Below the pieces are notes generated by a model, which did no database searches, was not told the DNA's origin, and saw only the letters and a program-made list of their open reading frames with translations. Position numbers and translations under genes: made by a program. 64,000 nucleotides of DNA from Hyalangium ruber (GTDB taxonomy: Bacteria > Myxococcota > Myxococcia > Myxococcales > Myxococcaceae): positions 1 through 64,000 of the forward strand of contig NZ_JAXIVS010000015.1 of assembly GCF_034259325.1 (NCBI RefSeq), written 5' to 3'. Positions 22,707 to 45,889 of this stretch are shown here, in pieces (the first letter of the stretch is position 1; the number at the start of each line of letters is the position of its first letter).

Positions 22707-23111
22707 ATGCGGCTGAGGGTGGCCTGCCGGGTTCTCTCCATTCTCCTGGCAGGGTGCGCATCCGGGTCTGTGACGCAGCTTCCTGCTGCCCCAGCTCCCG
22801 CGTGTCCTACGGAGAAGCTGCGATTCACGCGGGAGACGAGCTGTCGCAACGATGGCTCGGTAGAGTTCTGCCTGCCGAAGGATGCGCAGGTGGTGGAGCG
22901 CGTGCGGCGGCTGGCTCCAGAGATCCAGGGTCCGATGGGCGGTGCCGGACGCATCCGGTGCGATCTGTCTCGCGAGGACCTCTACTTCTTCCCCACGGAC
23001 AACAGGTGTCTGGAGCCGCACGGCGCGCTCACGGATGAGGCCTGGGCGTCGCTCTGTCGGGTGGCGGCGGATCCTGCGATCTCGGGAATCGCGCCCACCT
23101 GGTACGAGTGA
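22707..23111 (+). CDS. Small lipoprotein
   Basis: A 134-residue lipoprotein (signal ending LLAGC, Cys17) with a strong ribosome site AGGAGGT seven bases before ATG. The mature protein has six Cys besides the lipid Cys, several in pairs (ETSCRNDGSVEFCLPK, RIRCDLS, NRCLEP, SLCRV), likely disulfide-bonded, and no recognised domain. It precedes the ABC transporter operon by 43 bases on the same strand and may be transcribed into it, though a functional link is not shown. Confidence 0.8.
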   Translation: MRLRVACRVLSILLAGCASGSVTQLPAAPAPACPTEKLRFTRETSCRNDGSVEFCLPKDAQVVERVRRLAPEIQGPMGGAGRIRCDLSREDLYFFPTDNRCLEPHGALTDEAWASLCRVAADPAISGIAPTWYE

Positions 23112-23154
23112 GTGGGGTGGCACATCGGGGCGCGTGCCGCATAATCGGCGGCGA

Positions 23155-24204
23155 ATGAGCCTCTCCCCTCCCCTCCTTCGAGCCGGCCTCGCGGTCGCGG
23201 TGCTCCTCCTCGCCTCGTGCCGGATCGAGACCGCCGCGCCGTCGGATGCGTCCGTCTCGGCGGCCCGCGACAGTGAGCCCTCGGGAGAGGTGTGGGTCTA
23301 CACGTCCATGTACCGGCACGTGATCGATGCGTTCGAGCCACTGCTGAAGGAGAAGCTGCCCAAGGTACACGTCCAGTGGTACCAGGCCGGGAGCGAGAAG
23401 GTCGCCAGCCGCCTGGAGGCCGAGCGCGCCGCGGGTGCCGTTCGCGCGGATGTGCTCGCCGTCTCGGATCCCTTCCTGTACGAGCGGCTCACGCGCGAGG
23501 GCGCCTTCCTGCGCTACGCCTCTCCGAACGGGCTCCGGGTGCCGCGCTCGCTGCTCGAACTCGACGCGCACTACACGGCGGCGCGCCTGGCCACCATGGT
23601 CCTCGTGCATCGGAAGGGCGCCAGCGCCCCACCCACCTCCTTCGCGGACCTCGCGAGCGAGCGATGGAAGGGACGCGCGGCCCTTGGCGATCCGCTCACC
23701 TCGGGGACCGCGTTCACGTGGGCCGTGTTCGTCCAGGGGAAGTATGGCGATGGGTTCTTCGAGCAGCTTCGTGAGCGGGGGGCGTTCGTCGCCGGGGGCA
23801 ATGCGGCCGTGCTGCAAAAGGTGGAGAGCGGCGAGGCGGACTGTGGGGTGCTGCTGCTGGAGAACGCGCTGGCGGCCCAGGCGCGCGGGAGTCCGATCGC
23901 CTTCGTGTGGCCCGAGGACGGCGCGGTCCTCATTCCCGGCCCTGTCGCCATCTTCAAGACCACGCCCAATCCGGTGGCCGCGAAGGCGTTGGTGGACCTG
24001 CTCCTGTCCCCCGAGGGCCAGCGCATCATCGTGGAGAAGGGCGATATGCACGCGGTGGACCCTCGACTCGAAGGCCCTCGCGGAGAGCCAGGACTGGAGA
24101 CGCTGCTGTCGCGGTCTCAGCCGTGGACGCCCGAGCTGGTCGAGCGGGGCCTGACGCGCGGCGGCGCCACCAAGGAGCTGTTCAGCCGGGCCTTCTCCCG
24201 ATGA
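23155..24204 (+). CDS. ABC transporter substrate-binding lipoprotein (Fe(III)-type)
   Basis: A 349-residue extracytoplasmic solute-binding lipoprotein (signal ending LLLASC, Cys22) of the class that binds iron or other small anionic ligands (FbpA/AfuA, PhnS-like). Typical segments are VWVYTSMYRHVIDAFEP at the N-terminus, the hinge region with ADVLAVSDPFLYERL, and a later EADCGVLLLENAL and AVLIPGPVAIFKTTPNP. A Tyr pair for iron is not obvious, so the ligand is open. It is the first gene of a tightly packed operon: its TGA overlaps the ATG of the permease gene by four bases. Confidence 0.9.
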   Translation: MSLSPPLLRAGLAVAVLLLASCRIETAAPSDASVSAARDSEPSGEVWVYTSMYRHVIDAFEPLLKEKLPKVHVQWYQAGSEKVASRLEAERAAGAVRADVLAVSDPFLYERLTREGAFLRYASPNGLRVPRSLLELDAHYTAARLATMVLVHRKGASAPPTSFADLASERWKGRAALGDPLTSGTAFTWAVFVQGKYGDGFFEQLRERGAFVAGGNAAVLQKVESGEADCGVLLLENALAAQARGSPIAFVWPEDGAVLIPGPVAIFKTTPNPVAAKALVDLLLSPEGQRIIVEKGDMHAVDPRLEGPRGEPGLETLLSRSQPWTPELVERGLTRGGATKELFSRAFSR

Positions 24205-25874
24205 ACGTGCGCGCCCCCGAGGCACGGTGGTGGGGACTCGGCGCCTGGCTGGTGCCCATCCTGTTCTTCGCCGTCGGTCCGGTTGCCGTGCTCATCCTGC
24301 GGAGCGTGGGCGCCCTGGACGGCGGCGCGCTCGCCGCTCTGGCGAGCGAGACGGGGATCCTCGGGAACACGCTCCTCATCTCCCTCGGAGCGGCGGCGTT
24401 CGCGTTCGGGGTCGGGGCTCCGCTGTCGATCCTGCTCTTTCGCACCGACCTGCCGCTGCGGCGTGGCTTCGCGGTGCTCTTCACCCTCCCTTCGGCCATC
24501 CCTCCGTTCATCTGGGGGATGGGTTGGCTCCTGCTGGCCAGCCCTCGCGCGGGCTACCTGAATCGACTCCTGGGAGAAGGCTCGATCGATATCTATGGTG
24601 CGGCGGGCATCGCGTTCGTCGAGGGGCTGTCCGGTCTGCCGCTCGTGCTGCTCGCGGGGGCCGCCGCGCTCCGCAGGGTGGATCCCGCCCTGGAGGAGGC
24701 CGCGCGCGTGTGTGGCGCCTCCCCGCTCCGTGCCCTGTTCGCGGCCACCGTCCCGCTCGCCCTCCCCTCGCTGCTCTCGGGCGCGGTGATGGTGTTCCTC
24801 ATGACGGCCTCGGCGTTCGGTGTGCCGTACATCCTCGGGGTGTCGGCCTCGCCTCCGACGCGCGTGCTCACCACCCGCATCTATGAACTCATCCTCCTGG
24901 GTGGCGAAGGGAACCTCGCGCGCGCCGTGGTCCTCGCCGCCGCTCTGCTGCTGTTCACCCCGCTCGCCCTGTGGGCCACTTGGGTTCTCGGGCGCTCGGG
25001 CCGGGTACGCCTGAGCGCGGGCAAGGGCGTCTCTCCGCGTCCCTTCCCGCTGGGACGGGGCCGAGGATTGGCCACCGTGGGGGTCGGCGCCCTCTGCGCG
25101 ATCCTGGTCCTGCTGCCGCTCGGCGCGGTCGTCCTGACGTCCGTGCAGCGCAGCTTCGGCGCGGAGCTGGCCTGGGAGAGCCTGACGCTCACGCACTGGT
25201 CGGGAGTGCTCCTCGAGCCTCGAACACTGCGGGCCACCGGGCGCAGCCTCCTGCTCGCCGCCGGAGCGGGCCTGCTCGTCTGTGCCTTCGGGCTCGCGGG
25301 CGCGGTGCTCCGGCGCCACTTCCGTCGCTTCGGGGCCGGCGTGGAGGCGCTCGCCGCGTGGCCCTATGCCGTCCCGGGCACGGTGCTGGCCATCTCGCTC
25401 CTCGTCGCGTTCTCGCGGGATCTGCGGTTCGTGCTGCTCGACCGCGTCGCATTCGTGCTCGCGCTGGCGCACACGCCGTGGCTGCTCCTCATCGCCTACT
25501 CGGCGAAGTACCTCGCGCTGGGCACGCAGAACAGCGCCGAGGCCCTGGCGCAGGTGGATCCATCCCTCGCCGAGGCTGCACGGGTGAGCGGGGCCGGTCC
25601 GCTGCGGGCCTTCCTCGACGCACCCCTTCCCTTGTTACGCCCGGCGCTCATCGCGGCATTCGTGCTGGCGTTCCTCGCCTGTGCCACGGAGATCACCATG
25701 TCCGTGCTCCTCGTCCCCGCCGGCTCCGAGGTGCTGGGGACACTCCTGTTCGAGCTGCAGAGCTACGCGGATCCCTCGGCCGCGGCGGTGCTCGCCTGCG
25801 CGTTCGTGGCGCTCGTGCTGCTGGGGCAGGTACTCCTGGCCCTCATGCGGCGGGGCACGGCGGAGGTGCGGTGA
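24201..25874 (+). CDS. ABC transporter permease, two fused membrane domains (FbpB-type)
   Basis: A 557-residue permease with about twelve helices arranged as two tandem six-helix halves, as in FbpB/SfuB and the 2-aminoethylphosphonate permeases. Each half has the EAA loop that contacts the ATPase: EEAARVCGASPLRALFAATVP in the first and AEAARVSGAGPLRAFLDAPLP in the second. The substrate path is fed by the lipoprotein upstream. Start overlaps the stop of the binding-protein gene (ATGA), and its stop overlaps the ATPase start. Confidence 0.92.
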   Translation: MNVRAPEARWWGLGAWLVPILFFAVGPVAVLILRSVGALDGGALAALASETGILGNTLLISLGAAAFAFGVGAPLSILLFRTDLPLRRGFAVLFTLPSAIPPFIWGMGWLLLASPRAGYLNRLLGEGSIDIYGAAGIAFVEGLSGLPLVLLAGAAALRRVDPALEEAARVCGASPLRALFAATVPLALPSLLSGAVMVFLMTASAFGVPYILGVSASPPTRVLTTRIYELILLGGEGNLARAVVLAAALLLFTPLALWATWVLGRSGRVRLSAGKGVSPRPFPLGRGRGLATVGVGALCAILVLLPLGAVVLTSVQRSFGAELAWESLTLTHWSGVLLEPRTLRATGRSLLLAAGAGLLVCAFGLAGAVLRRHFRRFGAGVEALAAWPYAVPGTVLAISLLVAFSRDLRFVLLDRVAFVLALAHTPWLLLIAYSAKYLALGTQNSAEALAQVDPSLAEAARVSGAGPLRAFLDAPLPLLRPALIAAFVLAFLACATEITMSVLLVPAGSEVLGTLLFELQSYADPSAAAVLACAFVALVLLGQVLLALMRRGTAEVR

Positions 25875-28239: not shown

Positions 28240-29778
28240 CTACGGAAGGTCGAACAACTCGGCGGCAGCGCTTGCGAGCTGGTGGGCCTCTTCTCCGGGC
28301 CCGACAGCACAAAGGCGCACGGTAGGCTCGTGCAGCAACTTGCCGATGAGCGTCTGCCCCAAGCGCTCGATGCTCTCGCGCTGCGCGTCTGTGAGCACTC
28401 CACCCAGGTTGCGAATGATCCGGGCCATGACAGCCTGGGTCTTCTCCGTCTCGTCCTTGGCGATCTGCTCGGCCCTCTTCCAGAGTCGCTCCAGCACAGG
28501 CACCTCATGGAGAGTTCGACGGATTCCTCCGGAGGGCTCTTCCATCAGGCCGAACAACTTGGCTGCAACGTCCGAGATGCCCTCGTGCCCCATTGCACGC
28601 AGGCAGGTGGTGGGCTTGTGCAACAGCTTGTTGACGATAGCGCGTGCCATCGCCTCGATGCTCTTGCGCTGCTGGCCCGTAAGGCCCTCGCCTACCACGG
28701 ACAGCGTCCGTGCCACCTCCTCCTGGGCGATTCGAGCTGCCCACTGGCGCAGGCGCAACAACACCGGCATCTTGTGTCGCGCCTCTCGGTCGCGAATGAA
28801 GTGTGACACCGCTTGGGTGACCAGCACGCAGGCCTCCTGCTCGGCTACAGCCCAATTCGCCTTGTTGGCTTCGAAGAACTTCGCGAGATCGTCCACGTCG
28901 TAGGCTGTGACCCAGTCCAACTCGGCCACGTCCAGGGCGATGTCCCGGGGCACCGCCAGATCCAGCATGAACAAGGGCCGGAACCGGCGTGCCCTGGCCA
29001 CCGGGCTCACGTTCTCGCGGGTGAAAATGGGTACAGGCGATGCCGTCGCGCTCACCACCACATCGACCTTCTTCAGTAACTCTTGCAGTTCCTCGAAGGG
29101 GCGCGCCACGCCTCCCACCTTGGAGGCCAATGTCTCGGCGTGTGCCAGCGTACGGTTGGTGATGATCAGCTGTCCCACCTTCACGAGCTTCAGATGCCGT
29201 GCCGCCAGTTTGGCCATGTCCCCCGACCCGACCACCAGCGCCGTCTTGTGCCCAAGTTCCTCGAACACCTTCGACGTCAGTTCGACAGCCGCCGAGGCCA
29301 TGGAGGGCGCTGTTCGAGCAATGGCCGTCTCCGCACGTACACGCTTGGCGCACTTGAAGGCCGCCGAACACACGCAGCTGAGCACGCCGCGCACCGCGCC
29401 CACTCGCTTTCCCTGCTCGAAGGCATCCCTGAGCTGACCCAGGATCTGCGCCTCGCCCACCACCATCGAGTCCAGACTGGCGGCCACGCGGAACAGGTGC
29501 TCCAGGGCTTTATCTCCCTGGTACTCCTGGAGATGCTCAAATATCTCCAGCCCTCCCAGCTGGAGCAGCTCGGCGCGTGCAAGCTCGACCGCCGCGTTCA
29601 GGTCCGGCGAAGCCACGTACAGCTCCACCCGGTTGCAAGTGGAGACGAGCATCGCCTCGGTAGGCGCCTGGGCCAGGCGTTGGAGCACCTCCACCTGTTT
29701 CGCCTCAGGCAGCGAGAGCCGCTCGCGAAGACCCTGGGGGGTCTTCTTGTGAGACACGCTGATGCAGCACAGTTCCAT
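28240..29778 (-). CDS. hemA: Glutamyl-tRNA reductase paralogue with duplicated dimerisation domain
   Basis: A 512-residue HemA-family protein. Glutamyl-tRNA reductase makes glutamate-1-semialdehyde, the first step of C5 tetrapyrrole synthesis. The catalytic domain has the active Cys48 (VSTCNRVELY), followed by the linking segment FRVAASLDSMVVGEAQILGQ and the NADPH domain with LVVGSGDMAKLAARHL and MLDLAVPRDI. The usual C-terminal dimerisation domain is present at about 330-415 and then again at about 426-512: KMPVLLRLRQWAARIAQEE and VPVLERLWKRAEQIAKDE start the two copies, and IVNKLLHKPT and LIGKLLHEPT end them. Normal HemA is about 420-450 residues. A second paralogue lies at 43463. Starts with ATG after GGGAGG. 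Confidence 0.92.
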   Translation of the reverse strand: MELCCISVSHKKTPQGLRERLSLPEAKQVEVLQRLAQAPTEAMLVSTCNRVELYVASPDLNAAVELARAELLQLGGLEIFEHLQEYQGDKALEHLFRVAASLDSMVVGEAQILGQLRDAFEQGKRVGAVRGVLSCVCSAAFKCAKRVRAETAIARTAPSMASAAVELTSKVFEELGHKTALVVGSGDMAKLAARHLKLVKVGQLIITNRTLAHAETLASKVGGVARPFEELQELLKKVDVVVSATASPVPIFTRENVSPVARARRFRPLFMLDLAVPRDIALDVAELDWVTAYDVDDLAKFFEANKANWAVAEQEACVLVTQAVSHFIRDREARHKMPVLLRLRQWAARIAQEEVARTLSVVGEGLTGQQRKSIEAMARAIVNKLLHKPTTCLRAMGHEGISDVAAKLFGLMEEPSGGIRRTLHEVPVLERLWKRAEQIAKDETEKTQAVMARIIRNLGGVLTDAQRESIERLGQTLIGKLLHEPTVRLCAVGPGEEAHQLASAAAELFDLP

Positions 29779-35440: not shown

Positions 35441-35554
35441 GGCGCTACCTTCTCCTACCCACTGGGCGGAGAAGCGCTCCCTCCGCCGCTACCTCGGCGT
35501 GAACTTGAACTTGCGCCGGGCTCAGGCTGTTTACATTGGACTCTGTCTGGCTCA

Positions 35555-35582
35555 TTGACACCCGTCCAGCGTGGAAGATAGA
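35555..35582 (+). promoter_or_regulatory. Possible sigma-70-type promoter
   Basis: TTGACA at 35555-35560 is a perfect -35 hexamer; GATAGA at 35577-35582 (16-base spacing) is a poor -10. If used, it lies inside the upstream extension of the next gene, arguing for the ATG at 35626 rather than the TTG at 35536. Confidence 0.35.
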
Positions 35583-35625
35583 GGCAACCGCCTTCGTAAA
35601 CGAGCATTTTTCCGAAACTTTCCCC

Positions 35626-36861
35626 ATGAATAGCCAGTGGCAGAGAAGACGGCAGCCCGATGATGTCCCCACACCCGTCGCGGTGGCCGTCTCCGACTTC
35701 TGTCGGCGCGCCAAAGCGGCCGCCTCCCCCTCCGAGGTCCGTGAAGCCCTCGCGCTCCTCACCGAGGAGGAGGACTTCCGTGTGCGCACCCTGACCGACA
35801 CCGAGCCAGAGGCCTCGCCCCTGGGGCCTTTCGCCGTGATCGACATCCTGCGCGGGACGGCCGCCTCCCTGGCCTCTCAGCGGCAGGCCTGCGGCTACTA
35901 CGAAGTCGTTCAGGAGCTGGCTCGGGTCCACGAGGAGAAGAAGCCCGATCCCCTCCCCGCTCAGCCCGCGGTGCCCACGTTCGCCGCGCCCCCGCCCCGC
36001 CCCGCGCCCGCCGGAGAGGCCTCCGCCGAAGGCAGCCAAGGGAAGGACGGCAAGGCCAGCCGCTCGGGTGCGCCCACCGTCCAGGAGCGCATTGCTCCCC
36101 GGAAGCGCGCCACCGAGGCCGAGGCGCCCGAGCCGTTCGAGTCCGAGGACGATGCGCCGCGCTTCCTCAAGCGGGATCTGCCCAAGCCCCGGGGCCGCTT
36201 CACCCAGGTGGCCGCGCCCAAGGGCAGCTACCAGACGCTGGTGCGCGCCGAGGGCAAGGACGTCCTGGAGCCGGCCATCGAGCAGAACGAGCACCGCTTC
36301 GCGCTGCTCAAGTCCCTGGCCGAGCAGTACAACGGCTCCAAGGGCGAGCTGAAGATGCCCGACGTGGAGAGCGTGCTGCGCCTGCACGATCTGCTGGACC
36401 CCCTGGCGGACCGGGAGCGGCAGGCCATCCTCGCCGCGTACACCGAGCACCGGGGCGCCGCGGGTCGGGTGGCCTGGGCCCTGGGGCTCAGCCCCTCGGA
36501 GCTGCAGCGGCTCATCTCCACGCTCCAGCTCCAGCAGGAGGTCGAGGACGTGCGCGAGCGCTTCCGTCGTGAGGCGCTGGGCTCCCGCCAGCTCACGCAG
36601 CGCCTGGATATGCTCGGCCGCGACAAGTACCTGGTGGATCTGGGAATCAAGAAGCGCTTCTCGGAGATGCTCCGCAAGGATCTGGAGGCGCTGGTGGACG
36701 ACGAGCTGCCGGACGCCCAGAGCCTGTCCGGGCTCGCCGAGGCCGTCTCGCGCAAGCACGGCGCCCCGCAGGAGCTCGTCCTGCGCGCCATCGAACGCCT
36801 GGGGCTGGCGGACTCACTGCGTGAGCAGCTGGGCGCCGACTCCGATCACTCTTTGCCCTGA
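35626..36861 (+). CDS. Unknown protein with a Fis-like helix-turn-helix segment
   Basis: A 411-residue cytoplasmic protein. The N-terminal 85 residues are helical, then comes a Pro/Ala/Lys-rich linker (about 110-200), and a C-terminal helical domain. A segment GRVAWALGLSPSELQRLIST looks like a Fis/HTH_8 helix-turn-helix, so a role in transcription is possible. Start chosen at the ATG because a TTG at 35536 lies upstream of a possible promoter; neither has a good ribosome site. The FmdB-type gene follows 13 bases after the stop. Confidence 0.75.
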   Translation: MNSQWQRRRQPDDVPTPVAVAVSDFCRRAKAAASPSEVREALALLTEEEDFRVRTLTDTEPEASPLGPFAVIDILRGTAASLASQRQACGYYEVVQELARVHEEKKPDPLPAQPAVPTFAAPPPRPAPAGEASAEGSQGKDGKASRSGAPTVQERIAPRKRATEAEAPEPFESEDDAPRFLKRDLPKPRGRFTQVAAPKGSYQTLVRAEGKDVLEPAIEQNEHRFALLKSLAEQYNGSKGELKMPDVESVLRLHDLLDPLADRERQAILAAYTEHRGAAGRVAWALGLSPSELQRLISTLQLQQEVEDVRERFRREALGSRQLTQRLDMLGRDKYLVDLGIKKRFSEMLRKDLEALVDDELPDAQSLSGLAEAVSRKHGAPQELVLRAIERLGLADSLREQLGADSDHSLP

Positions 36862-36874
36862 CCGAGGTTCAACC

Positions 36875-37225
36875 ATGCCTATCTACGAGTACTCCTGTCA
36901 GAGCTGTGGGAAGACCATCGACGTGCTCCAGAAGATCAGCGATCCGACGCCCGCCGCGTGTACCGAGTGCGGCGCCGAGGGCTCGCTGAGCCGCGCCATC
37001 AGCCGCTCGAGCTTCGTGCTCAAGGGTGGTGGCTGGTACGCCGATCTCTACAGCTCCACCAAGAAGGATGGCTCCAGCAGCAGCTCGGACTCCAGCAGCA
37101 GCAGCTCGTCCAGCAGCTCGTCCAGCAGCTCGTCGACTTCGACTTCGTCTTCGTCCTCGTCGAGCAGCAGCTCATCCAGCGCCTCCCCGGCGCCCGCCGC
37201 CGCAGCCGCCAGCAAGTCTTCCTGA
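36875..37225 (+). CDS. FmdB-type zinc-ribbon protein with poly-Ser tail
   Basis: A 116-residue protein. Residues 1-60 are the FmdB/DUF zinc ribbon (MPIYEYSCQSCGK, with C8, C11, C29 and C32 as metal ligands), found in many small putative regulators. After GGGWYADLY the rest is almost pure serine interrupted by Asp, Thr and Ala, ending in AAAAASKSS. FmdB proteins commonly end in a low-complexity tail, but a tract of this length is unusual and built from AGC/TCG/TCC codons. It shares an operon with the HTH-like protein upstream, and a strong hairpin follows. Confidence 0.87.
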   Translation: MPIYEYSCQSCGKTIDVLQKISDPTPAACTECGAEGSLSRAISRSSFVLKGGGWYADLYSSTKKDGSSSSSDSSSSSSSSSSSSSSSTSTSSSSSSSSSSSSASPAPAAAAASKSS

Positions 37226-37529
37226 GCGCACCTCGCGGCTCAGGCACGGGGATGTCAGGGGCCCGGTCATCGAGGCCCCCGTCCCCGTGCGTGAAGGCGT
37301 GAGCAGTCACCTGCTCCCTGGGGCATCTTGCCGATGCGCCAGGAGGGCCGGGGTTCGACGGGCCAGGCAGAGGAGCGCCTGAGCTTCACCCCGACCCCTT
37401 TGAGAGCAGGCGAGCCATCCGGCTGCCTCGTCTCCATCATCCCGCACGCCAGCCACCTCACACCCGGAGTGGGTGTGACTCCGCCCGCCTCGCGGCCGAC
37501 GGAGAACGTGCGCTGGAGGAGTTCACGGG
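37226..37529. other. Intergenic region without a gene
   Basis: This 304-base gap holds a strong two-part hairpin near its left end (see the terminator at 37244). I found no further gene, repeat or clear promoter; several short open frames in it lack ribosome sites and start or stop inside the hairpin. The next gene's ATG at 37530 has only a weak GGAG site ten bases before. Confidence 0.6.
37244..37290 (+). terminator. Long nested hairpin after the FmdB-type gene
   Basis: GCACGGGGA (37244-37252) pairs with TCCCCGTGC (37282-37290), and inside it GGGGCC (37258-37263) pairs with GGCCCC (37274-37279). The stem starts 18 bases after the stop codon and is long enough to stop transcription or protect the mRNA end, although no T run follows. 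Confidence 0.55.
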
Positions 37530-39059
37530 ATGATTTTCAACGGCACCCTGACCCTCATCACCCAGGTGAAACCCGAGGCGGTGGAGCCGCTCGCTGCGCT
37601 CCTGCGGCAACTCGACCAGGAGATGCGCACCCAGGAGGCCCACCCCTTCGACGGGCTGGAGGCCATTCACTTCGCGCACTGGAGCATCCTCGAGCATCGC
37701 TACCTGCTCTTCGGCGCCGATCTCTGCCTGGAGGGGGCTCCGCCAGGCAAGAAGGCCCGGCTCCAGGCCTGCGTCGAGCAGTTCGTGGCCACCCTGGCGA
37801 AGCCGCGGAACGCGGACTGCGCCGCGACGTTCGACACGCTCTACAGCCACTGCGTGGACTATCCGGGGCCGCTCCAGAGCCACCCCGGCAAGGTCACCGA
37901 CTACCTGCGGCTCAACGCGGTGGACTACACCGCGAGGCACGTGGACTTCGCCTACCGCGTCGCCCCGGTGCGGGGCATCCGGGAGATCATGAAGCTGCGG
38001 AGCGCGGTCGAGCAGCACCTGGACACGCCCTCCTTGGGCTCGCGGCCGGAGCAGCTCGAGCCCCGCCAGGTCCACGAGACCCTGCGCGGCAAGCTCGAGA
38101 AGCTCCTCTCGGGTGAACTCTCGGACGTGCGGTGGGAGAGAGACCTCGCCGCCGCGCAGTTCGAGGCGGCGAGCATCCGGCTGGGCTACCTGGTCCCTGG
38201 CTTCCTCCTGGGGTTGGTCGTCAACGCCCTGGAGCGGCTGCGCAAGAAGGAGCACACACGCGAGTACCCCGAGGTCTCGGATCGGACCCGGCGGGAGATC
38301 GAGGCGCGCCAGCAGCCGGTGCAGAACTCGATGATCCTGATCACCGCCATTCCCGAGAGCTGGTTCGCCCGGAAGAAGCAGCGCTTCTTCCTGAAGCTCA
38401 TCAACCTGCGGCTCCAGCGCAACGTGGTGGGGCTCAACGACATCCGGACCATTCACTTCGCCCGGTGGCTCACCTTCGAGCGCAACGGGCAGCGGCGGCT
38501 GATCTTCATGGTCGCCTACGACGAGAGCTGGGACGCGTACATCGACTCGTTCATCGACAACGACGATGTGAGCCGGTTCCTGAAGGCCATCTGGAGCCCT
38601 ACAAAGGGCTTTCCCCAAGGCATTCCCTTCGTGGAGCCCTTCAAGGAGTGGATCCGCAGCGTGCAGTCTCCGACGCTCGCCTGGTACAGCGCCTACCGGC
38701 ACGGCAAGACGCGCCTCCACGCGGACACCTCCGTGGGCATCTCCGTCACCGATCTGCACGAGGCGCTGCAGCTCCGGCGGGTGCTCACCCGTCCGAGCCT
38801 GCACGGCCTGGGCAACACCCTGGCCCGCCACATGCTGAAGACCTTCCTGGAGCAGGGCCGGTTCCCCTTCCAGAAGAAGCTCATGAGCGTGGGCGAGTCG
38901 AGCTACCTCGTCCTGGCGGTGCTGCTGTCCCGCCTCGGCCAGGGACTGACGGATTACAGGAGGAGACTGCATGTCGCTTTGGGGAAGAAGGCCGAGCGAG
39001 GAACCCTCGGGGTCGCGTCCCAGCCCGCTCTCGTGGCGCAAGAGGCGAGTCGCCCCTGA
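37530..39059 (+). CDS. Unknown protein with two related halves, peroxidase-associated
   Basis: A 509-residue protein without signal peptide. Two similar modules are visible: an early one with ITQVKPEAVEPLAALLRQL and IHFAHWSILEHRYLLFGADL, and a later one with ILITAIPESWFARKK and IHFARWLTFERNGQRRLIF followed by YDESWDAYIDSFI. Each looks like a ferredoxin-type alpha/beta fold. The IHFA(H/R)W phrase with a following [LI]LF strand recurs in proteins encoded near peroxidases and catalases, but no activity is known to me. The last 89 bases overlap the DyP peroxidase gene in another frame, so the two are probably made together. Confidence 0.8.
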   Translation: MIFNGTLTLITQVKPEAVEPLAALLRQLDQEMRTQEAHPFDGLEAIHFAHWSILEHRYLLFGADLCLEGAPPGKKARLQACVEQFVATLAKPRNADCAATFDTLYSHCVDYPGPLQSHPGKVTDYLRLNAVDYTARHVDFAYRVAPVRGIREIMKLRSAVEQHLDTPSLGSRPEQLEPRQVHETLRGKLEKLLSGELSDVRWERDLAAAQFEAASIRLGYLVPGFLLGLVVNALERLRKKEHTREYPEVSDRTRREIEARQQPVQNSMILITAIPESWFARKKQRFFLKLINLRLQRNVVGLNDIRTIHFARWLTFERNGQRRLIFMVAYDESWDAYIDSFIDNDDVSRFLKAIWSPTKGFPQGIPFVEPFKEWIRSVQSPTLAWYSAYRHGKTRLHADTSVGISVTDLHEALQLRRVLTRPSLHGLGNTLARHMLKTFLEQGRFPFQKKLMSVGESSYLVLAVLLSRLGQGLTDYRRRLHVALGKKAERGTLGVASQPALVAQEASRP

Positions 39060-40497
39060 CTACGAGCAGGAGCGCAAGGACATCCAGGGGCTCCTCCTGC
39101 ATGGCTACAAGCGGATGGAGGTCGCCCGCTTCCTGCTCCTGGGCATCAGCGAGGCCCGTGGGTGCAGGGCGTGGCTGCGGGAGCTGCTCCCCGAGCTCAC
39201 GAGCAGCGCGGACAAGTCGCCCGAGGTGCTCGACCAGGAGAGCTCGTGCGCGAACGTCGCCTTCACCTGGCCGGGGCTGCAAGCCCTGGGGCTGGAGCCG
39301 GAGGCGCTGAAGACGTTTCCCTTCGAGTTCCGCCAGGGCATGGCCGAGCGAGCGCACCTGCTGGGAGACTCCGGGGACAGCCACCCCGAGCGCTGGGAGT
39401 TCGGAGGCCAGGGCTCCCAGGGAGTCCCCCAGGAGCGCATCCACGTGATGCTGATGCTCTACGCCACGGACGAGGACGCGATGAAGGAGGTCCTTGCCCG
39501 GCACCGGGATCGGCTCGCGGCGGCGGGGCTGGTGGAGCTCTACTGCCAGCCCGCGGCTCACATGAAGGAGAAGGTGACGGTCCAGGGCAAGGAGCACGTG
39601 TTCTTCAAGGAGCACTTCGGCTTCCGCGACTCCCTCTCCCAGCCTCGGATCGCCGGGTTCCGGGATCCCGACGTCGGCGCCGCCGACTACGACCGGCCCA
39701 TCGCTGCGGGAGAGTTCATCCTCGGCTACGAGAACGAGTACGGCGAGAAGCCGATGTCTCCCCGAATCCCCGCCGCGAAGGGAGACACGGATCTGGGCCA
39801 CAACGGCACCTACCTTGTGCTGCGCAAGCTCCACCAGGACGTCGCCGCCTTCGAGGCCTTCGTCAAGGAGCACCAGGACCTGGCCGCCCGCTACACCTCG
39901 GAGCCGGAGAAGCAGCGGACCTGGCTGAAGGCGAAGCTCATCGGCCGCTGGCCCAACGGCGCCTACCTGCGGCCCGGTGAACACGAACAACCCCAGTGCC
40001 CGCACATGGATGCGCACGGGATCGCCAACGACTTCAACTTCCGCTCCGACAAGGAGGGGTTCGGGTGTCCGCTGACGTCCCACGTGCGGCGCGCCAACCC
40101 GCGCGACTCACTGCCTCCCGATCGCAAGCTGTCGATGAAGCTGAGCCGCCGGCACCGGATCCTCCGCCGAGGCATCCCCTACGAACGGGCCGGAGAGCAG
40201 GGCCTGCTCTTCATCGCGCTCAACGCCAACCTCGGGCGACAGTTCGAGTTCGTCCAGGAGAGCTGGATGAACAACGAGAAGGCCGGTGGGCTCTATGACG
40301 AGCGGGATCCGGTCACCTCGAACCAGGACAGCGGCCGGCTGACGCTCTCGGCGCAGCCCCTCCGCCAGAGTGTGAGAGGGCTCACGCGATTCGTGACGGT
40401 GAAGGGAGGCGGGTACTTCTTCCTCCCAGGGCTCGCGGCGCTGCGGCGGCTGGCGGCCCCCGCTGGCACCCTGGAGCCCGAACAGGCAGCCACGTAG
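38971..40497 (+). CDS. DyP-type haem peroxidase
   Basis: A 508-residue dye-decolourising peroxidase, longer than the usual 300-450. It has the DyP motif GFRDSLSQPRIAGF (distal Asp220; the usual GxxDG Gly is Ser), the proximal haem His in CPLTSHVRRANPR, an essential Arg in HRILRRGIPY and the GLLFIALNANLGRQFEF block. The N-terminal 90 residues fit the first ferredoxin-like half. No signal peptide, so cytosolic. The ATG at 38971 lies inside the upstream gene but has a strong site (AGGAGGAG). DyP enzymes use H2O2 to oxidise varied substrates; the haem-supply gene hemA2 lies 3 kb on. Confidence 0.9.
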   Translation: MSLWGRRPSEEPSGSRPSPLSWRKRRVAPDYEQERKDIQGLLLHGYKRMEVARFLLLGISEARGCRAWLRELLPELTSSADKSPEVLDQESSCANVAFTWPGLQALGLEPEALKTFPFEFRQGMAERAHLLGDSGDSHPERWEFGGQGSQGVPQERIHVMLMLYATDEDAMKEVLARHRDRLAAAGLVELYCQPAAHMKEKVTVQGKEHVFFKEHFGFRDSLSQPRIAGFRDPDVGAADYDRPIAAGEFILGYENEYGEKPMSPRIPAAKGDTDLGHNGTYLVLRKLHQDVAAFEAFVKEHQDLAARYTSEPEKQRTWLKAKLIGRWPNGAYLRPGEHEQPQCPHMDAHGIANDFNFRSDKEGFGCPLTSHVRRANPRDSLPPDRKLSMKLSRRHRILRRGIPYERAGEQGLLFIALNANLGRQFEFVQESWMNNEKAGGLYDERDPVTSNQDSGRLTLSAQPLRQSVRGLTRFVTVKGGGYFFLPGLAALRRLAAPAGTLEPEQAAT

Positions 40498-40554
40498 CAG
40501 CCCGGCAGTCCTCCGCTTTGGTTGGAGCCCACTCCATCTCCGAGGAGGGCTGCC

Positions 40555-41124
40555 ATGGAACCCACGTACGACGGAGAGCTTCGGCATTTCGAAGCGCTCA
40601 TCCGCCAACACCAGCCTCAACTCCACGGGTTCGCGCGCAGACTCTGCCGTCAGGGAGGAGTCGAACCCGAGGATCTGGTCCAGGACACGCTGGAGCGCGC
40701 GCTGCGCCGACGGGAGTGGCTCGCCGCGCAGAACGAGCGCATGCGCCTGGCCTGGCTCTACACCACGCTGCGCCGCCGCTTCCTCGATCTGCGCCGCCAC
40801 CAGCGCGTCGAAGAGCTCGTCGGCGCCACGCTGGAGCTGATCGAGGCGCCCGTGCTGATCCGCCAGAAGCGGCAGTGGCTCCTCTGGGAGCGCGTCTCCG
40901 ATGAACAGTTGCGCGAGGCCTTCGAGCACCTGAAGCCCTCGTTGCGCGAGCCCCTGGAGCTGCACGCGCTGGGGCTTCGCTACAAGGACATCGCCCAGCG
41001 GGTCGGCGCCACGGTGGGCACCGTGGGCGGCAGGATCTTCCAGGCACGTCAGGTGTTGCGCGCGCGACTCGTGGCCCGCCTCTCGGATGAGGAGCCGCAA
41101 GAAATGGCGGGCTCCCCGTCCTGA
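40555..41124 (+). CDS. ECF sigma factor
   Basis: A 189-residue RNA polymerase sigma factor of the extracytoplasmic-function group. Region 2 reads LHGFARRLCRQGGVEPEDLVQDTLERAL with the RxxFLDLRRH stretch; region 4 reads LREPLELHALGLRYKDIAQ and VGTVGGRIFQARQVLRARL (the common GTVKSRL motif is altered to GTVGGRI). Start at 40555, preceded by GAGGAGGG. No anti-sigma gene is adjacent. It lies between the DyP peroxidase and DoxX genes, so it may control this oxidative-stress cluster. Confidence 0.9.
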   Translation: MEPTYDGELRHFEALIRQHQPQLHGFARRLCRQGGVEPEDLVQDTLERALRRREWLAAQNERMRLAWLYTTLRRRFLDLRRHQRVEELVGATLELIEAPVLIRQKRQWLLWERVSDEQLREAFEHLKPSLREPLELHALGLRYKDIAQRVGATVGTVGGRIFQARQVLRARLVARLSDEEPQEMAGSPS

Positions 41125-41178
41125 AAAATGACGGAGCCCATCAGCCACCGTCGTTTCACTTCACTCGCAGGGACATTC

Positions 41179-41796
41179 ATGAAAGCCAGATCGCGATACG
41201 CAGCAGCTCCTCTCCTCACTCCTCCTCCGGCTCACTCCGAGCCCGGGCACACGCGGCAGGTCCACCGCGGACGCTCGACGCCTCCTGGGCTCACCTTCCC
41301 GAAGACCTCGGAGACCGCGCTCCGGCTCGCCTTGCGCATCGTCGCGGGCGCCGTCTTCATCACGCTGGGGCAGATGAAGTTCTTCGACAGCATCCTGCTG
41401 GGCACCGATGCCGTGACGCTGCCGACAGGGCCCGAGGGCTTCGCGCAGTACCTGGGCGCCATCGGCGTCCCCTTCCCGCTCCTCTCCGCGTACATGGTCT
41501 GCATCGTGGAGATGATCTGCGGCGTGGGCCTGGTGCTCAGCGCCTTCCTCCCCGCGCCCGCGATCCTCACGCGCCTGACCGCGCTGCCCCTCTTCATGGA
41601 CATGACGGTGGCCATCCTCACCGTGGGGGTGCCCAACCTCATGGGCGATCCGGTGCGACTGGAGGGCATCGCCGTCACCCATCAGGTCTGGAGATTCCCG
41701 CTCGAGTCCGCCCTGTGGCTGGCTGCCTTGGTCCTCCTGGTGCGGCCCCTGCCCAAGCGGGAACCTACCCCTACGTACGCTCCGAGCGGGTCCTGA
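41179..41796 (+). CDS. DoxX-family membrane protein
   Basis: A 205-residue protein: a hydrophilic N-terminal segment of about 45 residues, then four helices (ALRIVAGAVFITLGQMKFF, a helix around MVCIVEMICGVGLVLSAFL, one with LFMDMTVAILTVGVP, and SALWLAALVLLVRP). This is the DoxX/DoxD fold, seen in quinol oxidase partners and in membrane-associated oxidoreductase complexes. The ATG at 41179 follows AGGGA; an alternative at 41128 abuts the sigma factor stop. It is next in line after the sigma factor gene and is followed by a hairpin. Confidence 0.85.
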   Translation: MKARSRYAAAPLLTPPPAHSEPGHTRQVHRGRSTPPGLTFPKTSETALRLALRIVAGAVFITLGQMKFFDSILLGTDAVTLPTGPEGFAQYLGAIGVPFPLLSAYMVCIVEMICGVGLVLSAFLPAPAILTRLTALPLFMDMTVAILTVGVPNLMGDPVRLEGIAVTHQVWRFPLESALWLAALVLLVRPLPKREPTPTYAPSGS

Positions 41797-41824
41797 TTCC
41801 CCTCCAGCAGTGCGCGGCGAACTC

Positions 41825-41862
41825 ACGCCGCGGTGGCGCGCTCAGGCTCGCTACCGCGGCGT
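41825..41862 (+). terminator. Hairpin after the sigma factor/DoxX genes
   Basis: ACGCCGCGGTGGCG (41825-41838) pairs with CGCTACCGCGGCGT (41849-41862) over 14 positions with one G-U pair and a ten-base loop. It is followed by TGTCGTTT and starts 28 bases after the DoxX stop, the position expected of a terminator that separates the sigma/DoxX unit from the next peroxidase gene. Confidence 0.6.
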
Positions 41863-42006
41863 TGTCGTTTGGGGGGGCACGCCCGCCTCCCTGCCCTCCA
41901 GGCGAGCGAGGCCGCGCGCAAACACCTCCGGCCTCACGTCTGCCCCGTGCCCCCTCCACCCAGCAGCGGTGGGGGAGTCCCCCCGCCCAAAGGGAGGTAC
42001 GTCGAT

Positions 42007-43407
42007 ATGGTGCATCACGGCGCAATGGAGATCCGCGGTATCAACCCCCCTCGCTCGCGCTATCACGAGCGTGGGCGCTTCGGCAGGCTCTTCCCGGGGC
42101 TATCGCCGTTCGCGGTAGACACGCAGGATGTCCGGGAGCGGCTGCTCGAGATGGGAAAGCGCGGCGGCGTGATGGACCCTGGCGCGGACCCCGCCGCCAA
42201 CCCGCCCAACCCGGCGAACCTTTCGGCGGGCTTCACCTTCCTCGGGCAGTTCATTGATCACGACATCACGTTCGATCCCACCTCCAGCCTGGAGCGGCAG
42301 AACGATCCCGAGGCCATCTCCAACTTCCGCACGCCGCTGCTGGAGCTGGACAACGTGTACGGCGCTGGTCCAGTGGCCTCGCCCCAGTTGTACGACGCGA
42401 GCAACCCGAACAAGTTCCTCATCGACGCGTCGGCCCCGAAGGATCTGCCGCGCAACAGCCAGCTCACGGCCATCATCGGCGACCCCCGCAACGACGAGAA
42501 CCTCATCGTCTCGCAGTTGCACCTGGCGTTCCTGAAGTTCCACAACGCCGTCGTCGATGACCTGACCTCCAAGGGAACGGTTCACCGCACGGAGATCTTC
42601 GCGGAGGCGCAGCGGATCGTCCGCTGGCACTACCAGTGGATGGTGCTCCACGAGTTCCTGCCGCACACCGTGGGAGCCTCGGTGGTGGAGGACATCCTGA
42701 AGAACCGCCGCGACAACCGCTGCTACACCTGGCGGCATGAGCCGTTCATCCCCGTGGAGTTCGCCGTGGCGGCGTACCGCTTCGGCCACTCGCAGGTGCG
42801 GCCCGGCTACCGCGTGAACGCCAACTTCGCGGCGCCGATCTTCAACGCCACGCTCGATGCCTCGGTGGCCGATCCGAATGATCTGCGCGGCGGCAAGCGC
42901 TCCGATCGCCGCTTCGTGGAGTGGAAGTTCTTCTTCCGCATCGAGCCCAACTCGACGCAGGTGGGCCTGCGCATCGACACCACGCTGTCGCCCGCGCTCT
43001 TCGAGCTGCCCTTCATCCCGCCGGGGGCTCCGACCACCGATCCGCAGTCGCTGGCGCAGCGCAACCTGCTGCGCGGGCTGGTGTTCGGGCTGCCCTCGGG
43101 CCAGGACATGGCGCGCGCCATGCGCATCAAGCCCCTGAGTCCCGAGGAGCTGTCGGACGTGAAGCACCTGCGCTTCGATCGCTCGACGCCGCCGTGGTTC
43201 TACATCCTCCGCGAGGCGGAGCGGCGCGCGGAGGGCAAGACGCTGGGGCCGGTGGGCGGCCGCATCGTGGCGGAGGTCTTCGTCGGACTGGTGGAGGGCG
43301 ATCGGCTCTCGTACCTGCGGGCCGATCCGGACTGGAAGCCCTTCCTGGGCTCGAAGCCCGGGGAGTTCTTCATCGGTGACCTGCTGAAGTTCGCGGGCGT
43401 GGCGTAG
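42007..43407 (+). CDS. Animal-type haem peroxidase
   Basis: A 466-residue member of the peroxidase-cyclooxygenase (animal haem peroxidase) superfamily. The distal motif GQFIDHDITFDP supplies distal Gln, Asp for haem linkage, His85 and a calcium Asp; the proximal His is in AYRFGHSQVRPGY. Middle part LDNVYGAGP, YRPGY-like strands and SLAQRNLLRGLVFGLPSGQDM are typical. No signal peptide, so probably cytosolic or peripheral. Start at 42007 after GGGAGG, not the longer frame from 41833. Such bacterial enzymes use H2O2 for oxidations or halide chemistry. It is followed by a glutamyl-tRNA reductase gene 55 bases on. Confidence 0.9.
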   Translation: MVHHGAMEIRGINPPRSRYHERGRFGRLFPGLSPFAVDTQDVRERLLEMGKRGGVMDPGADPAANPPNPANLSAGFTFLGQFIDHDITFDPTSSLERQNDPEAISNFRTPLLELDNVYGAGPVASPQLYDASNPNKFLIDASAPKDLPRNSQLTAIIGDPRNDENLIVSQLHLAFLKFHNAVVDDLTSKGTVHRTEIFAEAQRIVRWHYQWMVLHEFLPHTVGASVVEDILKNRRDNRCYTWRHEPFIPVEFAVAAYRFGHSQVRPGYRVNANFAAPIFNATLDASVADPNDLRGGKRSDRRFVEWKFFFRIEPNSTQVGLRIDTTLSPALFELPFIPPGAPTTDPQSLAQRNLLRGLVFGLPSGQDMARAMRIKPLSPEELSDVKHLRFDRSTPPWFYILREAERRAEGKTLGPVGGRIVAEVFVGLVEGDRLSYLRADPDWKPFLGSKPGEFFIGDLLKFAGVA

Positions 43408-43462
43408 CGAAGCGCAATGCCCCTCTCTCCTTCGGGAGAGGGGGGAGTGGAGGGTTACGGAT

Positions 43463-44863
43463 ATGACCGCGCGAACTCCCCGGAGCACCTTTTCGCCCCG
43501 CCGTGGCGGAGCCCTTCTCGCGAGGAAGGGCCCTCCCCGCTCGCCCCGCTGGAGGACCCGATCGGCTCGGCCCGAGCCCTCTCCCGCGCCAGCACCGGCC
43601 GTCGCGCTGGAGCTGGTGTGCGTGGGGCTGTCCCACCGGACGGCCCCGCTGGCGGTGCGCGAGCGGCTGGCGCTGACAGAAGTAGATCGCGCCGGGCTCC
43701 TGCAACAGTGGGGACAGGCGCCCGGCGAGGCCATGCTGGTTGTTACCTGCAACCGGGTGGAGGTGTACGTGGCCACGCCGGACGCGGTGGGGGCCCGGGC
43801 GCGGGTGCGCGAGGCGCTCGGGCGGCTGGGCGGCCCCGAAGTCCTGGAGCACCTCTATGAGCACCAGGGCACCACCGCCCTGGAGCACCTGTTCCGCGTG
43901 GCCGCGAGCCTGGACTCCCTGGTGCTGGGCGAGGCGCAGATCCTGGGCCAGCTCAAGGCCGCCTTCGCGCAGGCTCGGCAGGCGGGAGCGGCGCGTGGGG
44001 GGCTCACGCGCATCTGCGCGGCGGCCTTCTCGTGCGCCAAGCGCGTGCGCACCGAAACGGCCATCGGCCAGGCAGCCACCTCCATGGCCTCGGCGGCCGT
44101 GGCGCTGGCCACCCAGGCCTTCGGCACGCTGTCGGACAAGACGGTGCTGGTGGTGGGCGCCGGGGAGATGGGCCAGCTCGCCGCTCGGCACGTGAAGCAG
44201 GCCCGGCCCGGGCGGCTGCTCATCACCAACCGGACACAGGCGCGCGCCGAGGCGCTGGCCGCCGAGGTGGGCGGCACGGCACGGCCCTTCGAGGAGCTGC
44301 ACCTGCTGCTGAAGGAGGCGGACGTGGTGGTGTGCTCGACCGCCTCGCCGCTGCCCCTGTTCACCCGGGAGAACGTGGGCGCGGCTGGCGCGCTCCGCCC
44401 GCTGCTCATGCTGGACCTGGCCGTCCCCCGGGACATCAGCCCGGACGTGGCCGAGCTGGCCGGGGTGCGTACCTACAACGTGGACGACATCCAGGCCTTC
44501 GTCGCCGAGAACGAGGCGGCGCGCGCCGAGGAGGCTCGCAGGGCCCACGGGTTGATCCTCGAGGAGGTGGCCCGCTTCAGCCGGGAGCGCGCGGTGCGGG
44601 ATGGCGTTCCCGTGCTGGCGCGGCTGCGGCAGCAGGCCGAGCAGATCGCCCGGGCCGAGTCGGAGCGAACACTGGTGGCGTTGGGCGAGGGCCTCACGGA
44701 CAAGCAGCGCAAGAGCGTCGAGGCCATGGCGCGGGCCATCGTCAACAAGCTGCTGCACGAGCCCACCGCGTGCCTGCGCTCCGGCGCCGAGGGCGAAGAG
44801 GGCCAACTGCTGGCCGAGACCGCGGCCCGGCTGTTCGGACTGCTGGGCGAGGCGCCACGCTGA
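43463..44863 (+). CDS. hemA: Glutamyl-tRNA reductase, second paralogue
   Basis: A 466-residue HemA with catalytic Cys96 (VTCNRVEVY; Cys about 48 counted from the usual start), GVGLSHRTAPLAVRERL start block, NADPH motif VVGAGEMGQLAARHV, MLDLAVPRDI and one dimerisation domain (VPVLARLRQQAEQIAR to IVNKLLHEPT). The frame from ATG 43463 adds about 48 basic, Pro-rich residues before the usual N-terminus, and has a GGAGGG site; a GTG at 43616 would give a conventional length. It is about 60 percent like the paralogue at 28240 by eye and lacks that protein's second C-terminal domain. It lies directly after the peroxidase gene. Confidence 0.92.
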   Translation: MTARTPRSTFSPRRGGALLARKGPPRSPRWRTRSARPEPSPAPAPAVALELVCVGLSHRTAPLAVRERLALTEVDRAGLLQQWGQAPGEAMLVVTCNRVEVYVATPDAVGARARVREALGRLGGPEVLEHLYEHQGTTALEHLFRVAASLDSLVLGEAQILGQLKAAFAQARQAGAARGGLTRICAAAFSCAKRVRTETAIGQAATSMASAAVALATQAFGTLSDKTVLVVGAGEMGQLAARHVKQARPGRLLITNRTQARAEALAAEVGGTARPFEELHLLLKEADVVVCSTASPLPLFTRENVGAAGALRPLLMLDLAVPRDISPDVAELAGVRTYNVDDIQAFVAENEAARAEEARRAHGLILEEVARFSRERAVRDGVPVLARLRQQAEQIARAESERTLVALGEGLTDKQRKSVEAMARAIVNKLLHEPTACLRSGAEGEEGQLLAETAARLFGLLGEAPR

Positions 44864-44917
44864 GCGGCGCTGGCCGGAAACTGGCGAGGCCCACGCGGGC
44901 GACGCACACTTCGCTTC

Positions 44918-45157: not shown

Positions 45158-45889
45158 GTGAAGAGATTGTCGGTAGTTCTCCTGGTCCTGGTGGCAGCCG
45201 GCTGCAAGTCCCACACGCAGGTCGCCCCGGATGATCGCGCCACGCTGGAGCAGACGCTCACCGGCCCGGACGCGGATCGCTTCCTGCGCGTGTCCTTCTA
45301 CGTCACCCCCTTCTTCGGGGACGCGTCGCGGCGGCTGCTCACGCCCTATCCGCCCGAGGACGTGGACATGCTCAACGATCGGCTCGGCAAGCCCATCAAC
45401 CCCGGCGCGGTCGAGGCCACGCTGGCCGCGGGCGCCAAGGCCCGCATCCGCAAGGTGGAGTTCCCCACCGCCTGGGTGGTGGCCGAGCGCGTCCTCTATA
45501 CGCCGCGCACCTGGCCCTGGGTCTACGTGGACGTGGAGGGGGCGCCGCCCGGGCCTCCGCTGGTGCTCGTGCTGCCGCCCCACCACAAGACGCGCGAGGA
45601 GTTCCTCGCCGAGGTGGAGCGCTCCCTGGCGGTCCAGGATCTCGCCCCGCGGATCGCCGCCTTCAACGAGCAGGTGCGCGAGGCCGTCCGCCAGAAGAAG
45701 GCCGTCACCGGCATGCCCTCCGAGGCGCTGGAGATGGCCTGGGGCTACCCCGAGACCATCAAGCGCACCCTCGAGGGCACCACCCGCAACGAGGAGTGGA
45801 TCTACCCCCGGGGCCGGCGCCGGGCCTACCTCAGCGATGGGGTGCTGGTCCGCGTGGAGGAAGGCGCTCCTCCGGCGGCCCCGAAGTAG
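45158..45889 (+). CDS. Unknown lipoprotein
   Basis: A 243-residue lipoprotein (signal ending VLVAAGC, Cys16) starting at GTG 45158. The mature part has an alpha/beta look with RFLRVSFYVTPFFG, VEFPTAWVVAERVLYTPRTW and a C-terminal EMAWGYPETIKRTLE plus WIYPRGRRRAYL, phrases also seen in small outer-membrane assembly lipoproteins, where a beta-hairpin follows the PETIKR segment. No domain can be assigned with confidence. It converges with the PHP gene. Confidence 0.75.
   Translation: MKRLSVVLLVLVAAGCKSHTQVAPDDRATLEQTLTGPDADRFLRVSFYVTPFFGDASRRLLTPYPPEDVDMLNDRLGKPINPGAVEATLAAGAKARIRKVEFPTAWVVAERVLYTPRTWPWVYVDVEGAPPGPPLVLVLPPHHKTREEFLAEVERSLAVQDLAPRIAAFNEQVREAVRQKKAVTGMPSEALEMAWGYPETIKRTLEGTTRNEEWIYPRGRRRAYLSDGVLVRVEEGAPPAAPK

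Follow-up and report, generated by a model that had tools for sequence, protein, structure and literature searches.

Do six adjacent genes for haem enzymes and their apparent partners form a single unit, and why should a gene for glutamyl-tRNA reductase (HemA), the enzyme of the committed step of haem synthesis, lie at the end of them? The question is raised by a locus in the window analysed here, the first 64,000 nucleotides of contig 15 in a myxobacterial genome of 10.77 Mb, where six genes with high GC3 lie head to tail on the + strand at positions 37530-44863. The initial annotation described them as a self-sufficient oxidative module with its own sigma factor and a second glutamyl-tRNA reductase. 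The present analysis suggests that the genes do belong together, and that the HemA copy is linked to the peroxidases in a way that recurs in relatives, as a booster of haem synthesis rather than as a self-contained pathway.

Results

All six genes are present within 7.3 kb on one strand, as first described, and five of them have curated family matches. The exception is ORF1 (37530-39059), which has an internal repeat and whose stop is overlapped by the gene for a DyP-type peroxidase (39049-40497; 482 aa from a GTG start; PF20628 and PF21105). There follow an ECF sigma factor (40558-41124; PF04542 and PF08281), a DoxX-family membrane protein (41128-41796; PF07681), an animal-type haem peroxidase, here AnPer (42007-43407; PF03098), with a reading frame open from 41833 and a conserved start at 42007, and HemA (43463-44863; TIGR01035 and three GluTR Pfam domains). 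The family matches of DyP, AnPer and HemA uphold the earlier description of two unrelated haem enzymes beside the gene for the committed step.

Comparison with relatives indicates how the genes came to lie here. The flanking genes, at 35536-36861 (+) on the left and 45158-45889 (+; a putative lipoprotein present in 92 of 96 family genomes) on the right, adjoin each other in every one of the 28 relative loci in which both sides are visible. Moreover, five relatives align through the empty site, on the left up to window positions 37096-37216 and on the right from 44872-44874. In the two whose alignments reach both edges about 13-20 bp are unmatched, and in the tightest case the gap is 12-13 bp; homology on the left stops at 37209-37216. 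From these alignments and the adjacency of the flanking genes it follows that about 7.65 kb (about 37217-44871, +), comprising the six genes with some 310 bp 5' of ORF1 and ending 8 bp past the HemA stop, has been added to a locus whose remaining parts are intact throughout the family. Judged by these alignments, the six genes are one inserted cassette.

The block holds only these six genes, with no transposase or integrase among them; no 9-mer is common to its two ends, no terminal repeats were found, and its GC and tetranucleotide composition is ordinary. A transposon or integrative element was rejected on the lack of transposase, end repeats and odd composition, and a foreign origin was rejected on composition. 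Rfam elements and tRNA genes are absent from the window, and so there is no tRNA-type insertion site. In the order-level relatives G033 and G027 (loci L306 and L308), the canonical ccsA-hemA-hemC-hemD genes have homologues of window genes 45158, 45902 and 46722 at a distance of about 4-8 kb; in the window these last three genes flank the inserted block, and the link may be coincidence.

Among the genomes searched, including the 96 family genomes that formed the comparison set, no genome but that of the window showed all six genes in exactly this order. ORF1 lies directly upstream of DyP in all 29 testable loci of the 96 genomes. ORF1-DyP-DoxX-HemA is contiguous in two genomes inferred to be Stigmatella (G070 and G071, the latter of which we take to be Stigmatella aurantiaca DW4/3-1), DoxX-AnPer-HemA occurs in G101, and AnPer-HemA occurs in four Archangium genomes (G007, G040, G041, A. 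lansinium, and G043, A. violaceum Cb vi76); orthologues of DoxX also lie inside the G070 and G071 cassettes. The expectation that the gene order would be conserved in relatives therefore holds for the parts, every neighbouring function recurring in sub-cassettes, and fails for the whole. Because the block is a single insertion with respect to relatives and its sub-units are conserved neighbours elsewhere, the grouping of the six genes goes beyond chance; their proposed unity is borne out by the one inserted block, the conserved pairs and the conserved ORF1-DyP-DoxX-HemA form.

The surroundings of ORF1-DyP in family genomes usually include a divergent Ser/Thr-kinase-AAA gene upstream. At loci L261, L262, L263, L040, L147 and L148 it encodes a Ser/Thr kinase of 1350-1420 aa with an AAA ATPase domain, and several of these loci also encode a small protein that matches sigma-70 region 2. 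Neither gene is present in the window's block.

The HemA of the block (HemA43463) scores 386 bits against the TIGR01035 equivalog, for which the cut-off is 210, and has the catalytic TCNR motif. It is not, as first proposed, a second glutamyl-tRNA reductase: the genome encodes three, the other two being the canonical copy, which adjoins hemC (contig 1, 594203), and a copy on the - strand of the window at 28240-29778. This third copy is divergent and unlinked to peroxidases, has two matches to the GluTR dimerisation domain and no close orthologue seen in the 96 family genomes, and lies 2-3 kb from a binding-protein-type ABC transporter (22882-25874).

At the strict cut-off used for counting, HemA matches were obtained in 72 of the 96 family genomes, with the two matches in G084 treated as pieces of one gene and not as an extra copy. 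Nine of the 72 have an extra HemA, and all nine hold an orthologue of AnPer (60% identity or more). In G067, the only other holder of the orthologue, AnPer is broken and HemA is present once, and in G095 AnPer and HemA decay together. The association of an AnPer orthologue with an extra HemA gives a Fisher p of 1.2e-10, a value that ignores kinship among these related genomes. In seven of the nine genomes the extra HemA follows AnPer directly, and in the other two it lies within ORF1-DyP-DoxX-HemA. These data support the view that the HemA copy goes with the haem peroxidases and not with the canonical hem operon. In the order-level relatives G027, G029, G033 and G035, an extra HemA was also seen (L305, L307, L310 and L312), and no homologues of DyP, AnPer, ORF1 or DoxX were found near it; thus an extra HemA is not always linked to peroxidases, and the link is a feature of the Myxococcaceae genomes compared and no general law.

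In the HemA tree, the copies from the window, G101, G070 and G071 form one clade (100/100) nested among ordinary HemA proteins of the closest genera, and the linked copies of Archangium form another (100/100). A single origin of the linked clades is rejected (AU p 0.018, a value that long branches advise treating with caution). Given these two clades and this rejection, the linkage of HemA to peroxidases probably arose twice, hemA having probably been captured on two occasions by peroxidase loci. The linked copies have dN/dS of 0.10-0.21, against 0.20 for canonical copies, which indicates purifying selection; one dN/dS value (AnPer, G040/G043) was set aside as artefactual, probably because of a stop codon within the slice.

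The N-terminus of HemA43463 is of interest with respect to feedback control. Its core is conserved from 43607 and is preceded by an Arg-rich extension; the linked HemA proteins are without the canonical start Met, and their starts lie 2-60 codons upstream. The codon composition of the HemA43463 extension is not clearly coding, and the length of the extension varies among the linked proteins. In Salmonella, as described in PMC5801465 and the 1999 paper cited there, glutamyl-tRNA reductase undergoes haem-responsive degradation through its N-terminus, and positive charge introduced near that terminus makes a mutant protein more stable. It is an attractive inference that the extension would allow HemA43463 to escape degradation triggered by haem. 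The haem-binding Cys-170 was considered as a further difference between linked and canonical copies and rejected, since it is absent from both in an alignment that included an E. coli row.

ORF1 matches nothing in Pfam, NCBIfam or PDB, and its two halves align to each other (hhalign probability 97.9, E 5.9e-13), so that its initial description as an unknown protein with a duplicated domain was correct and the duplication is real. Comparison of the ORF1 and DyP profiles gave a match probability of 0.2, and the reading of ORF1 as a degenerate DyP was rejected by sequence, a shared fold being possible. An AlphaFold model made from the single sequence (pLDDT 38) was unusable. In Rhizobium leguminosarum a relative of ORF1 is joined to DyP in one protein, and in Pararhizobium and Novosphingobium the fusion also takes in a P450; Skermanella has ORF1, DyP and P450 as three separate genes side by side. 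From these fusions and adjacent genes, ORF1 is best read as a partner protein of DyP. ORF1-DyP-P450 also occurs in three Archangium genomes, and at the Archangium ORF1-DyP locus the P450 lies directly downstream, a patatin-like phospholipase upstream and a GDSL lipase farther on; the window's block has neither a P450 nor lipases. The alphaproteobacterial ORF1-type loci, fused or separate, are at L300:4988-9259, L301:4862-9193, L303:6317-9313 and L302:6152-10397, and their ORF1-DyP-P450 is possibly an undescribed three-part haem enzyme.

The DyP protein keeps the catalytic Asp, the proximal His and the distal Arg, and D194, H345, R347, R348, R373 and R374 are invariant among 12 relatives. In its GXXDG motif, which reads GFRDS, the last Gly is replaced by Ser. 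Class V of the DyP peroxidases, formed by merging the former C and D classes, contains the largest proteins; the best PDB match of the window's DyP is 8re3 (E 8e-52), and D-type enzymes and further long DyPs are among its matches in PDB.

The peroxidase-cyclooxygenase superfamily is marked by the motif G-Q-x-x-D-H-D, in which Asp forms the first haem ester, by R-x-x-E, which holds the catalytic Arg and the Glu of the second ester, and by a proximal His hydrogen-bonded to Asn, the haem being covalently bound (PMC4420034). Among ten relatives of AnPer, G82, Q83, D86, H87 and D88 of the distal motif GQFIDHD are invariant, as are R163 and E166 (DPRNDE), which align with R-x-x-E of 8s6c, and H263 and N355, which also align with 8s6c and are the predicted proximal His-Asn pair. 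By alignment, AnPer is a protein that keeps the sequence signatures of the superfamily given in PMC4420034. In G067, the broken AnPer orthologue (L088:311-1633) has an internal deletion and lies about 5 kb from an intact ORF1-DyP, and the one HemA of this genome is the canonical copy. In a scan of 84,980 species, HemA was found within flanks of up to 8 kb at none of 76 AnPer loci outside Archangium, in other phyla or classes, so that AnPer has no general need of HemA.

The evidence on regulation is mixed. In five Archangium genomes the closest relatives of the ECF sigma factor, with 53-56% identity, are placed 6-12 kb away from ORF1-DyP, in four of them next to DoxX, in keeping with the idea of a dedicated sigma factor; on the other side, the related cassettes of G070, G071 and G101 lack the factor, and the few sequences that the gaps of the window offer upstream of the block genes showed no common promoter motif. 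No sigma-70 promoters were found there. Between AnPer and HemA lies a strong hairpin (43420-43445, +; z -2.7). At the same place in three Archangium genomes (L083, L084 and L085), directly after AnPer and about 40 bp before the HemA start, there is a hairpin with a T-run (z -3.0 to -3.5) that resembles an intrinsic terminator, and so co-transcription of AnPer and HemA may be partial. The hairpins in this gap could act as attenuators that lower HemA output relative to the peroxidase, or could separate the transcripts.

Discussion

Our analysis points to a haem-peroxidase module, inducible and equipped with its own HemA for the committed step, an extra copy that would boost haem for DyP and AnPer; we think this rather probable. 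The module would be switched on, perhaps by its own ECF sigma factor, and the extra HemA would raise glutamate-1-semialdehyde and hence 5-aminolevulinate, which the ordinary downstream enzymes would convert to haem, loading DyP and AnPer. Production of the peroxidases would then neither drain the haem pool of the cell nor depend on the canonical HemA. ORF1 and DyP are probably joined in a complex, DoxX is likely to give or take electrons at the membrane, and the peroxidases may use peroxide to oxidise a substrate, perhaps a lipid. Haem synthesis by the block is not self-sufficient, as had been supposed, since only its committed step is duplicated: hemA is the only haem-pathway gene in the block, and HemB, the one later step searched for, is encoded by a single gene, on contig 5. 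Because HemB is single-copy, the whole pathway is not duplicated and HemA43463 is read as a booster of flux. A further-reaching version, which we offer tentatively and consider doubtful as a whole, holds that the twice-captured hemA with its altered N-terminus would be a feedback-escaping haem supply for induced peroxidases, that the cassette would move as a unit, and that ORF1 would represent a new family of DyP partners that also joins DyP to P450.

The extra HemA might instead feed a secreted product or another tetrapyrrole, with the peroxidases as tailoring enzymes, for example in making a secondary metabolite or a signal derived from an oxidised lipid. Dedicated enzymes that form 5-aminolevulinate are known in natural-product clusters and provide a precedent, and both the Archangium ORF1-DyP locus, with its P450, patatin-like phospholipase and GDSL lipase, and the fusion of ORF1, DyP and P450 in Pararhizobium and Novosphingobium would fit such a role. 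However, the window's block lacks that P450 and those lipases as well as any acyl-CoA ligase, NRPS, PKS or other tetrapyrrole-branch gene, and HemA adjoins haem enzymes in both apparent captures; we regard product formation as unlikely.

That HemA is a passenger, a chance duplicate beside peroxidase genes that is carried with the block and has no functional link to them, appears quite improbable. Linkage that apparently arose twice (AU p 0.018), retention under purifying selection beside different peroxidases, AnPer or DyP, and the absence of the extra copy where AnPer is broken (G067) or its decay together with AnPer (G095) all weigh against it, although physical linkage alone would keep genes together in a discrete insertion, the genome has a third, unlinked HemA at 28240-29778, and HemA is missing next to AnPer outside the myxobacteria. 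The block might also consist of small units, ORF1-DyP, ECF-DoxX and AnPer-HemA, that lie side by side, each with its own regulation and action. Every one of these pairs occurs on its own in some relatives, and the 210 bp gap between DoxX and AnPer and the hairpins between AnPer and HemA would suit such a division; but all six genes, and nothing else, entered the locus as one block, and the borders of the supposed units are crossed by ORF1-DyP-DoxX-HemA in G070 and G071 and by DoxX-AnPer-HemA in G101, which leaves separate action with little likelihood.

The proposed haem-boosting module has partial parallels in known systems. In Bacillus subtilis, PerR controls both hemAXCDBL and katA, so that haem synthesis and catalase are co-induced under peroxide control. 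There too haem supply is coupled to demand by haem peroxidases or catalases, but B. subtilis induces its single main hem operon, whereas the window has a dedicated extra hemA inside a peroxidase cassette. In fungi, fusions of a dioxygenase and a P450 act as linoleate diol or psi-factor synthases; they resemble the DyP-P450 combination in relatives of the locus in that a peroxidase-type haem domain is joined to a P450, but that domain belongs to the cyclooxygenase superfamily, while the one here is DyP, and no P450 occurs in the window's block. Duplicated haem-synthesis enzymes with specialised roles, hemH1 and hemH2 in Shewanella (PMC6664582) and GluTR1 and GluTR2 in plants (PMC6597238), are similarly pathway paralogues with jobs of their own; they are not known to form part of a peroxidase cassette, whereas the link in the window is a recurring gene neighbourhood. 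Operons of the efeUOB type, which serve iron uptake, also carry a DyP peroxidase with a membrane partner in a conserved arrangement (PMC8197335), but without ORF1, HemA or a second haem peroxidase. Our literature search found no paper that joins glutamyl-tRNA reductase, peroxidase and myxobacteria.

With two peroxidases, one spare HemA and an intact canonical HemA, the locus is a clean test case in which genes can be deleted. In addition, the ORF1 family offers a practical lead to the natural substrate of the long DyPs; as a rule these enzymes are studied only for their ability to decolourise dyes. The way in which bacteria adjust the supply of haem when haem enzymes suddenly need it has mostly been explained by the regulation of one hem operon. 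The recurrence of a spare HemA beside the same peroxidases suggests that these peroxidases bring their own booster of haem supply. If this is true, then the hemA that follows peroxidase genes would be a second solution to the problem, in which the enzyme of the control point is packaged with the consumer.
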